A stretch of DNA of 36,429 bases, taken from assembly GCA_029781465.1 (NCBI GenBank), contig JAKOWQ010000183.1, forward strand, positions 1 through 36,429, written 5' to 3'. The notes under the pieces were generated by a model. The model had not been told where the DNA came from. It made no database searches and was given only the letters and a program-made list of their open reading frames with translations. The position numbers and the translations under genes are program-made. Position 1 is the first letter of the stretch. Each line of letters starts with the position of its first letter. Source of the stretch: Pseudomonadota bacterium. GTDB taxonomy: Bacteria > Pseudomonadota > Alphaproteobacteria > Sphingomonadales > Sphingomonadaceae. Shown here in pieces: positions 2,991-8,438 of the stretch.

Positions 2991-3830
2991 TCAGGCCTCC
3001 GCCGTCATCGTGCCCTCAATGTGGCCCAGCCCATCGATCTCGGTGCGCACCACATCGCCCGGCTTGAGGAACTGGCGCGGGTCCATCGCCGCCCCGACCC
3101 CGCCCGGGGTGCCGGTGAACAGGCAATCGCCGGGCTCCAGCGTCATCCCCATCGCAAGATGCTCGATCTGTTGCCAGACATTGAAGACCAGGTGCCGGGT
3201 GTTCGAATCCTGCCGCTTCTCGCCATTGACGAAGCAGCGGATGCCAAGTGCGTGCGGATCGCCCAATTCGTCGGCGGTGACGATCCACGGACCCATCGGG
3301 GCGTGAGTGTCGAAGCTCTTGCCGAACGACCACTGCGGCGTGGCGTGCTGGGCCAGGCGTTCGGTGACGTCGTTACCCACGCAGTATCCGAATATTGCAG
3401 CAGGGGCATCGGCAGCGGCGATGTGCTTGCCGCCCCTGCCGATCACCGCAACCAGCTCGGCCTCGTAATCGTTGGTGAAGGCGCCGCGCGCGATCAGGAT
3501 CGGATCGTAGGGGCCGTTGACGCTGGTCTGGGCCTTGGTGAACCAGACCTGCTTGTCGGGCGTGCCCATCTTCGATTCCGCGATGTGATCGGCATAGTTG
3601 AGCCCGATCGCGAAAATCTTGCCCGGGCGCTGGACCGGGGCTTCGAGCCTGACCGAGGCAAGCGGCACCCCGCCGCCAGCGATGGCCCGAGCCTCGAGCT
3701 GCGGCTTCACCGCGTCCCACTGGCGGATCAGGTCGATCATCGTGCCGGGCACACCGGTATCGATTACGCTGTCGCCGACAACGATGCCGGTGCGGGTCTT
3801 GCCATCGGCGGTATAGGTGCAGAGCTTCAT
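2991..3830 (-). CDS. Fumarylacetoacetate hydrolase (FAH) family protein
   Basis: The start used here is the ATG at 3828-3830 (MKLCTYTADGKTRTG), giving 280 residues, the usual size of bacterial FAH-family enzymes. The open frame runs further upstream but those residues look unrelated. Family motifs are GLNYADHIAE, DYEAELVAVIGRGG (two acidic metal ligands), GYCVGNDVTER and a C-terminal LFTGTPGGVG. These enzymes hydrolyse or hydrate acyl-pyruvate-type C-C bonds (fumarylpyruvate hydrolase, 2-hydroxypentadienoate hydratase and relatives) with Mg2+ or Mn2+. The start codon overlaps the dioxygenase stop by 4 bases (ATGA), so translation is coupled. Position in the operon implies action on a ring-cleavage product. 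The precise reaction cannot be told from sequence. Confidence 0.9.
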   Translation of the reverse strand: MKLCTYTADGKTRTGIVVGDSVIDTGVPGTMIDLIRQWDAVKPQLEARAIAGGGVPLASVRLEAPVQRPGKIFAIGLNYADHIAESKMGTPDKQVWFTKAQTSVNGPYDPILIARGAFTNDYEAELVAVIGRGGKHIAAADAPAAIFGYCVGNDVTERLAQHATPQWSFGKSFDTHAPMGPWIVTADELGDPHALGIRCFVNGEKRQDSNTRHLVFNVWQQIEHLAMGMTLEPGDCLFTGTPGGVGAAMDPRQFLKPGDVVRTEIDGLGHIEGTMTAEA

Positions 3831-4846
3831 GCGGGATTTCCTTGAGGTTGGCGGCGAAACAGCCGCTTGAGACGCAGCATCAGCGCGGCAAAAAACGCGA
3901 TCAGCCCGGGCGGCGGAGCCAGCTTGCCGGCAAACATCGGATGGGGCGAACCCCATTGCACGGCAAGAAGCGCGCTTATCGGCATCTTCTGCGGCGGGTC
4001 CTTGGCGGTAAACAGATCGCCGTCGGTCCAGTGCTCAAGCTCGTTGCCGAACGGATCCTTCCAGTAATCGAACACCTGGCTGCCCATGATGTGACGGCCA
4101 ATGCCCCAGGCGGCATTGCGCTTGCGCCCCTTGAGGTGCTGGTGGCCCAGCATCAGGTCGTCGATATTGGAGACTTCGAACGCGGCATGCAGGATGCCAA
4201 GTTCTCCCGGCAACTGGGCGAGAAACAGGGTGTGGTGGTCGGCCGGCTTGTCACCGCGGTCGCAGCGCATGAAAGCGCCGACAGGAATGTCCCTGGCCGC
4301 TTCGACTTCGTCCGAAGTAAGGAATCCGAAGCGCTCCTTGTACCATTTCTCCGAGGCCCTGAAGTCCCGCACCTTGAGCACCGCATGACCGATCCGGCGG
4401 ACATGGCTGGGGCCTGGGTCAAGCCGCACCGCAGTTCGCTGACGCTGCCGGGCGGCGGCGGTGTTGCGGGGCAGATCGGCAAAGGGCAGGCTGCCCTCGG
4501 TCCGCGCCTGGCCCGCAACCACTTCGACCCGGTAGCCATCGGGATCGGTCAGCCGCACGATCCTGCCGCCGCCGGGTTCGTTCAATTCTTCCACCGGCGC
4601 GCCGACATGCGCGGCGAGCGTTTCGAGATCGGCGAGTGTTTCGGCGCGAAAGCCGATCGCGAGGAACCGCGCTTCGCCCGGCTCGGTGACGTGAAGGAAG
4701 GGGCGGCCGTCGCTGCCTTTTGCGTAAAGGCGCCCGTCCTGTTCGAAACAGGCCATGCCGAAGTCTTCGAGAAACGCGCGCATCGCCGCCAGATCGGGCG
4801 CGCCATAGCGCACATGGGCGATGTCTTCGATGCAAATGACGCTCAT
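3827..4846 (-). CDS. Extradiol ring-cleavage dioxygenase, two-domain VOC family
   Basis: The start is the ATG at 4844-4846 (MSVICIED), preceded at a good distance by GGGAGA. It gives 339 residues made of two vicinal-oxygen-chelate modules (about 5-115 and 150-285), as in catechol 2,3-dioxygenase and 2,3-dihydroxybiphenyl dioxygenase. The likely Fe(II) ligands of the second module are H154 (GHAVLKV), H220 (LHAAFEV) and E271 (DPFGNELEHW); the last part closely matches the extradiol signature. It would open a catechol meta to the hydroxyls. It is the first gene of the operon and divergent from a TetR gene, with two palindromic operators between them. The residues after the second domain are basic and of unknown role. 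Confidence 0.88.
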   Translation of the reverse strand: MSVICIEDIAHVRYGAPDLAAMRAFLEDFGMACFEQDGRLYAKGSDGRPFLHVTEPGEARFLAIGFRAETLADLETLAAHVGAPVEELNEPGGGRIVRLTDPDGYRVEVVAGQARTEGSLPFADLPRNTAAARQRQRTAVRLDPGPSHVRRIGHAVLKVRDFRASEKWYKERFGFLTSDEVEAARDIPVGAFMRCDRGDKPADHHTLFLAQLPGELGILHAAFEVSNIDDLMLGHQHLKGRKRNAAWGIGRHIMGSQVFDYWKDPFGNELEHWTDGDLFTAKDPPQKMPISALLAVQWGSPHPMFAGKLAPPPGLIAFFAALMLRLKRLFRRQPQGNPA

Positions 4847-4883
4847 CGCGGTGTCTCCCGGCTTGCGAATCCTGGCGATTCGC

Positions 4884-4903
4884 ACTTGACTATCTGGTCA
4901 ACT
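4884..4903. promoter_or_regulatory. Putative TetR operator, copy 1
   Basis: An imperfect 20-bp palindrome, ACTTGACTA..GGTCAACT in outline, whose inner arms TTGAC/GTCAA are exact. It lies in the 99-bp gap between the divergent dioxygenase operon and the TetR gene, 26 bp centre to centre from a stronger copy. Inferred to be a binding site for the adjacent regulator. Confidence 0.6.
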
Positions 4904-4909
4904 AACGGT

Positions 4910-4929
4910 ACTTGACTAGATAGTCAAGT
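4910..4929. promoter_or_regulatory. Putative TetR operator, copy 2 (near-perfect palindrome)
   Basis: Two exact 9-bp arms, ACTTGACTA and TAGTCAAGT, around a 2-bp centre. The half-site TTGACTA is shared with copy 1. The site ends 16 bases before the TetR start codon, so binding would be expected to repress tetR itself and the divergent dioxygenase operon. Symmetry is seen directly; regulator binding is inferred. Confidence 0.7.
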
Positions 4930-4945
4930 AAGGTAATCCCGCCCC

Positions 4946-5575
4946 ATGGCCAGCCTGCCGCTTCAGTCCAACCCGCGCGCCGCGCGCACCCGCGCGGCCA
5001 TGCTGGCCGCCGGGTTCGAGCTGCTCGCCGAACGCCCGATCGACGCCATCGCAATCGATGAAGTGGTGGCCCGGGCCGGGGTGGCCAAGGGCAGCTTCTT
5101 CAACCACTTCTCGGACAAGCCCGGCTTCGCCCATGCAATCGGAGCGACGGTCAGGGCGGAACTCGAAACACTGGTCGGCCTTGCCAACGCGGGCGTCGAC
5201 GATCCCGCTATCCGGCTCGCGGGGGGCATGCGCGTGGCGGTCGGTTTCGCGCTCGATCACCGCGATCGGGCAATCGTCATGTTGCGCGGGCTTGAGCTGT
5301 CGACCGGGCTGCACCACGAACTCAACCGCGGAATCCGGGCCGACATCGAAGGTCTGGTCGCCGCCGGACTGGCGCGCGAAGAGGCCCGGACCAGCGGCGT
5401 GCGTTATTGGCTGGGGCTGTGCAACATGGCCATGCTCAATGCCATCGAGCGGCGGCCGTCGCGGCCCGAAGCGGCCGAGCGGCTGCGCGAAATGCTGGTG
5501 CTTGGCCTGGCCGGACTTGGCGTTCCCGGCGAGAGGGCGGGTATGGTCGCGCGGCTGGTTTCCGCTCAGCTCTGA
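4946..5575 (+). CDS. TetR/AcrR family transcriptional regulator
   Basis: The 209-residue protein has a TetR-type N-terminal helix-turn-helix: RAAMLAAGFELLAERP, then IDEVVARAGVAKGSFFNHFSDK. The rest is an alpha-helical ligand-binding domain that differs between family members and gives no ligand clue. It is transcribed away from the dioxygenase-FAH-monooxygenase operon, with two palindromic sites in the shared intergenic region. The simplest reading is a repressor of that operon which releases DNA in the presence of an aromatic substrate or intermediate. Its 3' end overlaps the end of the convergent MFS gene by 10 bases. Confidence 0.9.
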   Translation: MASLPLQSNPRAARTRAAMLAAGFELLAERPIDAIAIDEVVARAGVAKGSFFNHFSDKPGFAHAIGATVRAELETLVGLANAGVDDPAIRLAGGMRVAVGFALDHRDRAIVMLRGLELSTGLHHELNRGIRADIEGLVAAGLAREEARTSGVRYWLGLCNMAMLNAIERRPSRPEAAERLREMLVLGLAGLGVPGERAGMVARLVSAQL

Positions 5576-6774
5576 GCTTCGCCAAGCCGGATCGGAAGAA
5601 ACAGCAAGGCTCCCAGCGCCAGCAGTCCGATCGAGGCCAGCTGGGCAAGGGCATAACTGCCAAAATGGTCGAAGACCAAGCCAAAGCCCAGAATCCCGAT
5701 CGCGCTTCCCAGCCAGCCGAAGCCATGCAACGCGCCGAACACCGTCCCGTAATTCTCCACCCCGAACCGGCGGGCGACGAAGTAGGCAAAGATCCCGATA
5801 TCGGCGCCCTGCATCACGCCCAGCAGCATCCCCGCAGCCAGAATCGGGATCGCCGCGCCTTGATCGAGCAGGAACACGCCGAAGCCCAGACCCGGCACCG
5901 CGGTCAGAACCAGGGCGACAAGTCGCGGCTCAAGCTTGTCGAGCAGAAAGCCGCCGCCCAGCTTGCCGGCAAACTGGCCCAGCGCAAAAGCCGTTACGCC
6001 CCAGGCCGCGGTTTGCGAGGAAAGCCCTTCGTCCTGGATCATCGGCGAAAGCTGGCTGATCGCGCCCGAGGTGGTGATGGCCACCAGGATGTTGGCACCC
6101 ACCAGGAGCCAGAAATCGCGAGCCGCAAGGAACGAGCGAGCGGCTGGCGTCGGCATCGGAACGAGCGGCGCAAGCCGGGCCACGCTGGCACTGCGCGGCA
6201 TCAGCGCAAGAACGAGCGGCAGGCCGACGGCGAAGCCAATGAACGCCAGCGCGGCAAAGCCATAGCGCCAGCCCTCGATCGCGATAACCCGTTCGAGAAT
6301 CGGTGGCACCAGCGCGGCTGAGATCGAGGCACCGGTGCCGACCAGCCCCAGCGCCAGCCCGCGATTGCGGCGGAAATGCGCGTTGACCGGACGGGTGAGC
6401 AGGACCGTGCTCGCACCGCCGCCAACAATGCCGGCCAGCGCCACGGTCAGGCCAAGGCCATAGAGATCGTCCACCAGCCAGGCCTGGCTCAGCTCGATCG
6501 CTGCCATGATTGTGGTCGCGACGATGAACACCGGACGAAAGCCGAACATGTCGGCCAGCTTGCCCACCAGCGGTGCGCCAAGCGCGGCGGTGATGATCAG
6601 CGCCTGAACCATCCCGGTTTCGCCGCGGGTCAGGTGGAGTTCCTTGGCCAGTGGGATCAGGAACATCGAAAAGGTATAGAACATCAGCGAAACGCCGGTG
6701 GCGTTCGCCGTGGCCGAGGCCGCGACGATCCGCCAGCCGACCTGCCATTCGTTTTGTTCCGGAGCGGATGTCAC
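5566..6774 (-). CDS. MFS transporter
   Basis: A 402-residue, 12-helix major facilitator protein. Visible elements include the first helix with SLMFYTFSMFLIPLAKEL, the cytoplasmic loop GKLADMFGFRPV (a variant of the MFS motif A) and helix 5 with GLVGTGASISAALVPP. The pattern resembles monocarboxylate and oxalate/formate-type MFS members, which commonly carry small organic acids. It is the last gene of a three-gene minus-strand operon: the gap to the upstream limonene-epoxide-hydrolase-like gene is only 9 bases. It could import the substrate, or export a product, of the neighbouring catabolic genes. The substrate is not determinable here. Confidence 0.87.
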   Translation of the reverse strand: MTSAPEQNEWQVGWRIVAASATANATGVSLMFYTFSMFLIPLAKELHLTRGETGMVQALIITAALGAPLVGKLADMFGFRPVFIVATTIMAAIELSQAWLVDDLYGLGLTVALAGIVGGGASTVLLTRPVNAHFRRNRGLALGLVGTGASISAALVPPILERVIAIEGWRYGFAALAFIGFAVGLPLVLALMPRSASVARLAPLVPMPTPAARSFLAARDFWLLVGANILVAITTSGAISQLSPMIQDEGLSSQTAAWGVTAFALGQFAGKLGGGFLLDKLEPRLVALVLTAVPGLGFGVFLLDQGAAIPILAAGMLLGVMQGADIGIFAYFVARRFGVENYGTVFGALHGFGWLGSAIGILGFGLVFDHFGSYALAQLASIGLLALGALLFLPIRLGEAQS

Positions 6775-6783
6775 CTTGGGTAT

Positions 6784-7158
6784 CTAGCCTGCCATGGCCT
6801 TCATGTAGGTGCCCATGTCGAAGTAGTCGCGCCAGACCTTGATCTTGCCGTCTTCCATCTCGAACACCCCGCAGCAGGGCAGGTCGACCTGCTTGCCGTC
6901 CCGGGTTACCGTGTGATCGATCCGTTCGGCGATCACCAGATTGCCCGCTTCCGCGATATTGAGCACTTCCCAGTCGGTGCTGGCCCAGCCCCCGGCGAAA
7001 CCGGCGATGAAGGGGCGCAGCGCGGCATGGCCCTGCACCGGGGCGATCGGCATGTTGTAATAGACCCCGTCCTCGGCGAAATAGCCGGTCAGCTCATCGG
7101 GATCGAGCCGTGACCAGGCGGCGATGAAGTCGCGCACGATCCGCAAATTGCCCCCCAT
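6784..7158 (-). CDS. Limonene-1,2-epoxide hydrolase-like (SnoaL/NTF2 fold) protein
   Basis: A 124-residue single-domain protein of the NTF2-like fold. It carries the spacing of the limonene-1,2-epoxide hydrolase catalytic residues: an Arg-x-Asp pair in IAERIDHTV and an Asp in VWRDYFDMGTY near the C-terminus. In the characterised enzyme an Asp-Arg-Asp triad activates water for epoxide opening. The N-terminal part NLRIVRDFIAAWSRLDPDEL and YFAEDGVYYNMP is typical of this family. It sits 3 bases after the stop of the reductase gene and 9 bases before the MFS gene, so it is the middle gene of an operon. Epoxide hydrolysis is likely but the substrate is unknown. Confidence 0.82.
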   Translation of the reverse strand: MGGNLRIVRDFIAAWSRLDPDELTGYFAEDGVYYNMPIAPVQGHAALRPFIAGFAGGWASTDWEVLNIAEAGNLVIAERIDHTVTRDGKQVDLPCCGVFEMEDGKIKVWRDYFDMGTYMKAMAG

Positions 7159-7161
7159 CGC

Positions 7162-8340
7162 TCAATCCTCCGCCGCGAAACTGATTTCGGCGTGGTCGCG
7201 CAGGCGCTGCACCAGCGCTTCGCCCAGCAGCGCGCCGGGGGTGGAGATGCCGCCACCGGCGGTGCAGGAAAGCAGCGCGATCCCGGTTTCGGCGATCATC
7301 CGGCTGGTCGATCCATAGCCCGGATCGTAGCGCCCCTTGACACCGTAGTGCAGCGAGCGGCCATCGGGCCATTCGCCCACGAACAGCACGTCGTAATAGC
7401 CATTTTCGCGTTCTTCCTTGCTCGGGCCTTCGCCCGGCTTAGGCGGTTTGGCGCCGAACGGGTTCTTGAGCATCTCGCCAATCGCGTGGGCGGCCTTCTC
7501 GCCCAGCTCGCCGGGGCTGGTCAGCATCATCTCGTCATAGCGGAAATCGCTGCCATAGGGATGGCCGAGCAGGAAATTGGTGCGGTGGACGTTCTTGACG
7601 TTGATCGTCGCCATGATGAACGGCGCGGCCCACTTGCCCAGCGCCTCGTCGTATTCGGGCACCAGGCCGAGCGGCTGGGACGGTCCCTCGAAGCCGGGGG
7701 TCAGCCCGAAGGGGCTTTGCAGCACCTTGATCAGCGACGGGTCGCGCGCCACGGCCTTCATCGTTTCGGTCAGGCTGGCGGCGGTTCCGCCCGAAAAGGT
7801 GCCCTGCATCGCCCGCACCCGGCCCTTCACACGCGGGGCGGGCCCGCCAAAACGCCGGATCGCTTCCTGCTGGAGCATGAACACGCCCAGATCGAAGGGG
7901 ATCGAATCGAAGCCCGAGGAAAAGCTGATCCGCGCGCCCGATGCCTTGGCCGCTTCGTGATACTTGTCGGCCATCTGCCGCATCCAGGCCGGCTCGCCGC
8001 ACAGGTCGGCATAGTCGGTCCCCGCCGCGACGCAGGCCGCCAGCAAGGGCTCGCCATAGAGCTGGTAGGGGCCGACCGTGGTGATGACCACCCGGGCGCT
8101 TTCGGCCAGCGCCTTCATGCTCGCCGGATCGTCGGAATCGGCGACCACCAGCGGGGTGTCCGCCGGTGCCCCGATCAGGTCGCGCACTTCGGCCAGCTTG
8201 TCCGCGCTGCGCCCGGCCATGGCCCATTTGGGGCCCTTGCCCTGGTAGTGGTGGGCAAGATATTCGGCGACCAGGCGCCCGGTATAGCCGGTGGCGCCAT
8301 AGACAACGATATCGAAGGGGCGATCGGCCTTGGCGGTCAT
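7162..8340 (-). CDS. Saccharopine dehydrogenase NADP-binding domain protein (enoyl reductase-like)
   Basis: The start chosen is the ATG at 8338-8340 (MTAKADRPFDIVVYG), which has GAGGAGA about 8 bases upstream; 392 residues result. The N-terminus is a Rossmann fold with VVYGATGYTGRLVAEYL (residues 12-28). The segment VITTVGPYQLYGEPLLAAC is characteristic of the saccharopine-dehydrogenase-like group that includes the mycobacterial trans-acting enoyl reductase, rather than of true lysine-pathway enzymes. It is predicted to be an NAD(P)H-dependent oxidoreductase on a hydrophobic or acyl substrate. It heads a three-gene operon with the epoxide-hydrolase-like and MFS genes. Specific function is unknown. 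Confidence 0.85.
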   Translation of the reverse strand: MTAKADRPFDIVVYGATGYTGRLVAEYLAHHYQGKGPKWAMAGRSADKLAEVRDLIGAPADTPLVVADSDDPASMKALAESARVVITTVGPYQLYGEPLLAACVAAGTDYADLCGEPAWMRQMADKYHEAAKASGARISFSSGFDSIPFDLGVFMLQQEAIRRFGGPAPRVKGRVRAMQGTFSGGTAASLTETMKAVARDPSLIKVLQSPFGLTPGFEGPSQPLGLVPEYDEALGKWAAPFIMATINVKNVHRTNFLLGHPYGSDFRYDEMMLTSPGELGEKAAHAIGEMLKNPFGAKPPKPGEGPSKEERENGYYDVLFVGEWPDGRSLHYGVKGRYDPGYGSTSRMIAETGIALLSCTAGGGISTPGALLGEALVQRLRDHAEISFAAED

Positions 8341-8438
8341 GCAGTCTCTCCTCGCGTCCGATTCACCGGATCGCGGCACAGACTGCACATATCAGTAGCG
8401 ATGTCGAACCCAATTTGCCTGACGTTACGGCATGGGCA

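Follow-up and report, generated by a model that had tools for sequence, protein, structure and literature searches.

A conserved pair of putative TetR operators at a sphingomonad ring-cleavage operon, with an adjacent GANTC site hinting at a tie to DNA methylation

The window analyzed here (a whole stretch of 36,429 nucleotides from a member of the Sphingomonadaceae) contains a short intergenic gap bounded by the start codons of two divergent genes, a ring-cleavage dioxygenase (ATG at 4846, minus strand) and a TetR-family regulator (ATG at 4946, plus strand). It raises the question of whether two palindromes within this gap are the operators of the adjacent regulator and which other signals may be built into so compact a control region. 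The dioxygenase, a protein of 339 amino acids (3827 to 4846, minus strand), is assigned to the type I extradiol (VOC) enzymes by family profile matches and by its metal ligands: H154, H220, and E271 align with the metal ligands of BphC, which leaves the 2-His-1-carboxylate set complete, and H205, H252, and Y261 are retained in the same alignment as well. Two further genes follow on the minus strand, that is, an FAA-hydrolase family enzyme (2991 to 3836, 281 amino acids; Pfam PF01557, E 1.9e-68), whose gene overlaps the end of the dioxygenase gene, and an FAD-dependent aromatic hydroxylase of the MhpA-like subfamily (1518 to 2987, 489 amino acids; NCBIfam NF004829, 536.5 bits with a cut-off of 390). 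On the plus strand, the TetR-family regulator (4946 to 5575, 209 amino acids; Pfam TetR_N PF00440, 41.1 bits with a cut-off of 24) is all-helical in its AlphaFold model (mean pLDDT of 91.6). Among named genomes, the locus has its closest relatives in Novosphingobium and other sphingomonads.

Two palindromes and their conservation

Site 1, proximal to the dioxygenase gene, has the core TTGACTATCTGGTCAA (4886 to 4901; 20-bp form ACTTGACTATCTGGTCAACT, 4884 to 4903), and site 2, proximal to the TetR gene, the core TTGACTAGATAGTCAA (4912 to 4927; 20-bp form ACTTGACTAGATAGTCAAGT, 4910 to 4929). Their centers (4893.5 and 4919.5) lie 26 bp apart, and both left halves read TTGACTA, the reverse complement of which forms the right half of site 2. 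An earlier note on this DNA had described two 20-bp sites at this spacing with a common half-site and exact 9-bp arms in site 2. This description is confirmed, with the qualification that site 1 is imperfect because its right half reads TGGTCAA (TTGACCA). The arms of site 2 are perfect over 9 bp, or over 10 bp if T4909 and A4930 are included, which gives a 22-bp extended palindrome (TACTTGACTAGATAGTCAAGTA, 4909 to 4930). Comparable palindrome pairs 20–35 bp apart were found in 1 of 100 Markov-resampled windows. In the genome (2.59 Mb scanned, about 90% complete), these two sites are the only exact matches to the operator motif, and matches with up to two mismatches are not in excess of a reversed control pattern (25 vs. 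30). The sole match with one mismatch was considered as a further TetR target and dismissed, as it falls within the coding region of a response regulator.

A single search of named genomes yielded 79 loci, among which 43 (the window and 42 relatives) form a near branch that consists mostly of sphingomonads and includes a few loci labeled Caulobacterales or Hyphomonadaceae. Both sites are present in all 43, and TGAC...GTCA, that is, eight core bases per site, is invariant at either of them. Since the loci are related and their counts thus not independent, changes on the dioxygenase tree are the safer measure, and these amount to 9–22 for most neighboring columns and to none for the eight core bases of each site. 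The divergent TetR and dioxygenase genes are retained along with the sites in nearly all relatives, and a separate family-wide search gave the same twin-site result for the closest TetR orthologs. The earlier note had named conservation of the sites alongside the gene pair as a check on its claim of twin operators belonging to the adjacent TetR gene; the 43/43 near-branch loci pass this check, and conservation of the sites in every place where the two genes stay paired lends this prediction strong support. At greater distance, a TetR ortholog with 42% identity (L015) is accompanied by sites 98 bp apart, and Caulobacteraceae relatives (L077–L084; dioxygenases 60–64% identical) mostly carry one site only, close to the dioxygenase gene, so two sites are not essential to the system. 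This pattern suggests that the second site either arose in the sphingomonad branch or was lost from Caulobacteraceae.

Co-conservation and locus specificity together point to binding of both sites by the TetR protein. Judged from the sequence, the twin operators are real and represent a conserved local TetR operator pair of well-known design. In Tn10 tetR/tetA, two operators (tetO1 and tetO2) likewise separate a TetR-family gene from the target that diverges from it, the promoters overlap these operators, and the system is self-regulated (PMC3037858). The two systems differ in operator sequence, spacing, and ligand; furthermore, the target is catabolic here but an efflux pump in Tn10, and only the present locus has a GANTC site alongside.

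Putative facing promoters

The outer half-sites of both operators resemble −35 elements. A putative promoter of the dioxygenase operon (4899 to 4927, minus strand) would use TTGACT in the outer half of site 2 (4927 to 4922) and, after 17 bp, a weak −10 element (TAGTTG, 4904 to 4899), while a putative TetR promoter (4886 to 4914, plus strand), which is the less supported of the two calls, would combine TTGACT in the outer half of site 1 (4886 to 4891) with a weak −10 element (TACTTG, 4909 to 4914), again after 17 bp. In every locus, the distance from TTGAC to a facing A+T-rich element, which borders the opposite site, is 16–19 bp. Because the outer half-sites would double as −35 elements, the operator spacing would set a promoter spacer of 16–19 bp. 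The outermost T is found in 43/43 loci at the putative −35 element of the operon, as compared to 36/43 at the opposite outer end and 28/43 at both inner ends; the difference between 43/43 and 28/43 corresponds to p = 1.4e-5 with relatedness ignored, a value that is descriptive since the choice of offsets, motif windows, and definitions of the promoters followed inspection of the alignment. This T is not needed by the operator core alone, and the pattern supports overlapping promoters that face each other. Poor −10 elements (TANTTG/CANTTG) argue against this, and the A:T pair at flank position 2 that is read as part of them is shared by the flanks of all four half-sites and could instead be operator sequence. 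A strict sigma-70 consensus scan of the gap returned no promoter, and a terminator scan of the gap found none either.

Altogether, it is quite likely that the TetR-family repressor encoded next to the palindromes uses them as its operators and would govern the divergent ring-cleavage operon as well as its own gene from facing promoters in response to an aromatic ligand, with a GANTC mark at the edge of the switch. One TetR dimer would occupy each operator. As the outer half of either operator would serve as the −35 element of a promoter firing across the other, the two promoters would face each other over a shared stretch of about 50 bp, and occupancy of either operator would hinder both until an aromatic ligand from the pathway frees the repressor. 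Such a repressor–operator pair would provide a compact and well-defined promoter for a phenol-to-ring-cleavage pathway common to many sphingomonads.

The GANTC site beside site 1

The interesting part of this control region is not the ordinary operator pair but a position-locked GANTC, the CcrM-type methylation site, which the earlier note does not mention. It reads GATTC (as CGATTCG; 4877 to 4881, not assigned to a strand) and lies 4 bp outside site 1. In the near branch, this distance is 4 bp in 26 loci and 5 bp in 6, which amounts to 32/43, as compared to 18 loci for the next commonest pattern of GANTC-like form. A GANTC occurs within 14 bp outside site 1 in 34/43 loci and within 20 bp in 36/43. 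On the tree, the loci that have it show at least 9 changes of the center base with GA.TC kept; its presence changed 6 times. In Novosphingobium sp. MD-1, for instance, the site reads GACTC, and in Sphingorhabdus rigui DSM 29050 it reads GATTC. A second site (GAATC, 4867 to 4871, likewise without strand) forms an inverted repeat with the first, TGCGAATC-CTGGC-GATTCGCA (4864 to 4884), which comprises both GANTC sites and lies in the predicted dioxygenase leader. This second GANTC is seen in few relatives (e.g., L039, L052, and L057), and the inverted repeat was dropped as a candidate RNA hairpin because so few keep it.

This arrangement is hinting at a switch tied to DNA methylation, in which the GANTC 4–5 bp outside site 1 would place a CcrM mark at the edge of the switch. 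A tentative reading, somewhat short of an even chance, is that the operator pair acts together with a methylation-sensitive GANTC, so that CcrM couples the operon to replication or sustains a heritable state; sensitivity could arise via GcrA, via altered binding of TetR or polymerase, or via shielding of the GANTC from CcrM by TetR. Besides the locked position and the retention of GA.TC despite the changing center base, this reading is favored by the density of GANTC, which reaches 10 per kb over the 100 bp that precede the dioxygenase gene, as compared to 0.74 per kb within the coding region of that gene and 2.9 per kb in non-ORF stretches elsewhere. In addition, 32/33 sites fit YGAKTCK on one strand, the reported context of GcrA in Caulobacter (PMC7987155), vs. 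24% of background sites. Both partners appear to be encoded in the genome: GcrA is recognized with E 7e-41, and a CcrM-like methylase matches the Caulobacter CcrM model over its full length with 600 bits, which is under the strict cut-off of 830; the methylase gene adjoins one that reads as rnhB by eye. GANTC is also the main methylated motif of Sphingomonas sp. AAP5 (PMC8067484), and DNA-bound regulators can block CcrM, as exemplified by MucR or CtrA, which leave DNA locally hypomethylated in alphaproteobacteria (PMC5172544). Here, too, a regulator site beside a GANTC could shield it from CcrM, although it would be a locus-specific TetR protein rather than MucR or CtrA, and such shielding is hypothetical at this locus.

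Against the coupling stand the 9/43 loci that have no GANTC within 14 bp and the placement relative to the promoters. One class of regulated promoters in Caulobacter has GANTC between −10 and −35 (PMC4287350), whereas the site discussed here would fall outside that interval, that is, at about −44 to −40 with respect to the putative TetR promoter and at +11 to +15 with respect to that of the operon. Moreover, only two among about 100 genome matches listed have the gap of GANTC-N4-TTGAC, so this arrangement is locus-specific rather than a general genomic signature, and its rarity also weighs against the idea. Known CcrM/GcrA promoters of Caulobacterales share with this locus a GANTC in the regulatory region, the YGAKTCK context, and the presence of both proteins; however, they serve cell-cycle genes and not a catabolic, TetR-controlled operon with GANTC outside the putative −35/−10 interval. 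It is conceivable but rather doubtful that a sphingomonad ring-cleavage operon is under both a ligand-sensing TetR and CcrM methylation, with induction tied to the replication state or to a heritable pattern. If the GANTC is functional, an everyday catabolic switch would be wired to the alphaproteobacterial cell-cycle DNA-methylation system, and dozens of natural GANTC/operator variants are ready for comparison.

Spacing, ligand, and gene neighborhood

The earlier note had read the spacing as about 2.5 helical turns and concluded that two dimers sit on different faces of the DNA. An extended form of this idea, in which the spacing is a helical-phase device for cooperative binding of two dimers to opposite faces, as in QacR-type pairs, is unlikely. 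Spacings of 25, 26, 27, and 28 bp occur in 2, 14, 25, and 2 near-branch loci, respectively, and 26–27 bp, close to 2.5 turns, thus accounts for 39/43; however, a spacing that covers 25–28 bp and shifted at least 7 times across the tree does not indicate a fixed phase, and Tn10 tet operators function without cooperativity (PMC3037858). The 16–19 bp promoter spacer accounts for the same range at least equally well, which makes helical phasing the weaker account. Placement on different faces therefore fits loosely, but a defined phase is not borne out.

It is very improbable that the sites serve a regulator encoded elsewhere and that the TetR neighbor is incidental: the motif class TGACYR..YRGTCA does resemble the recognition sites of RutR, among other TetR-family members, but the only two exact genomic sites lie at this locus, and sites and TetR gene are kept together in nearly all relatives.

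The top fold hit of the TetR protein is RolR, the resorcinol-responsive repressor of Corynebacterium glutamicum (PDB 3aqs/3aqt, TM 0.63–0.69). RolR is also the nearest solved relative by profile match (positions 6–202, full length, E 7e-15), with an identity of about 20% to the TetR protein. Its operon encodes enzymes that differ from those found here. RolR represses an aromatic catabolic operon and binds its ligand through a network of Asp94, Arg145, Arg148, and Asp149 (PMC3086911). By our own reading of the alignment, with a chain-to-paper numbering offset of 16 that we infer, one of these four residues is kept (Asp149, corresponding to the invariant D133), and Asp94, Arg145, and Arg148 align with other residues. 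The sensor for an aromatic compound proposed in the earlier note is thus plausible in view of the extradiol dioxygenase with all its metal ligands, the hydroxylase, the FAA hydrolase, and the RolR relationship, but most of the ligand residues of RolR are not conserved. A phenolic inducer is plausible. With regard to the substrate, the naringenin genes FdeC/FdeE were considered as a literature link (PMC11069340), and plasmid-borne relatives of the dioxygenase were rejected as a guide (<60% identity and unlike neighbors).

The wider neighborhood varies among relatives and may include a metallo-beta-lactamase-fold protein, a sulfatase, or an aldehyde dehydrogenase. An MFS transporter of the GluP/FucP type (237 to 1502) converges on the hydroxylase gene and is retained in the closest relative (L039). 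Downstream of the TetR gene (5566 to 8388) lie an MFS transporter, a SnoaL/limonene-epoxide-hydrolase-like protein, and a saccharopine-dehydrogenase-like protein (named by eye). Many Novosphingobium relatives retain these genes at the locus, and in some of them two MFS copies are present. Some relatives carry insertions, either a sulfatase after the hydroxylase (L044, 9042 to 10394) or a metallo-beta-lactamase-fold protein between the FAA hydrolase and the hydroxylase (L040, L043, and L067, around 6862 to 7896), and these inserted genes are a possible clue to the substrate of the pathway.
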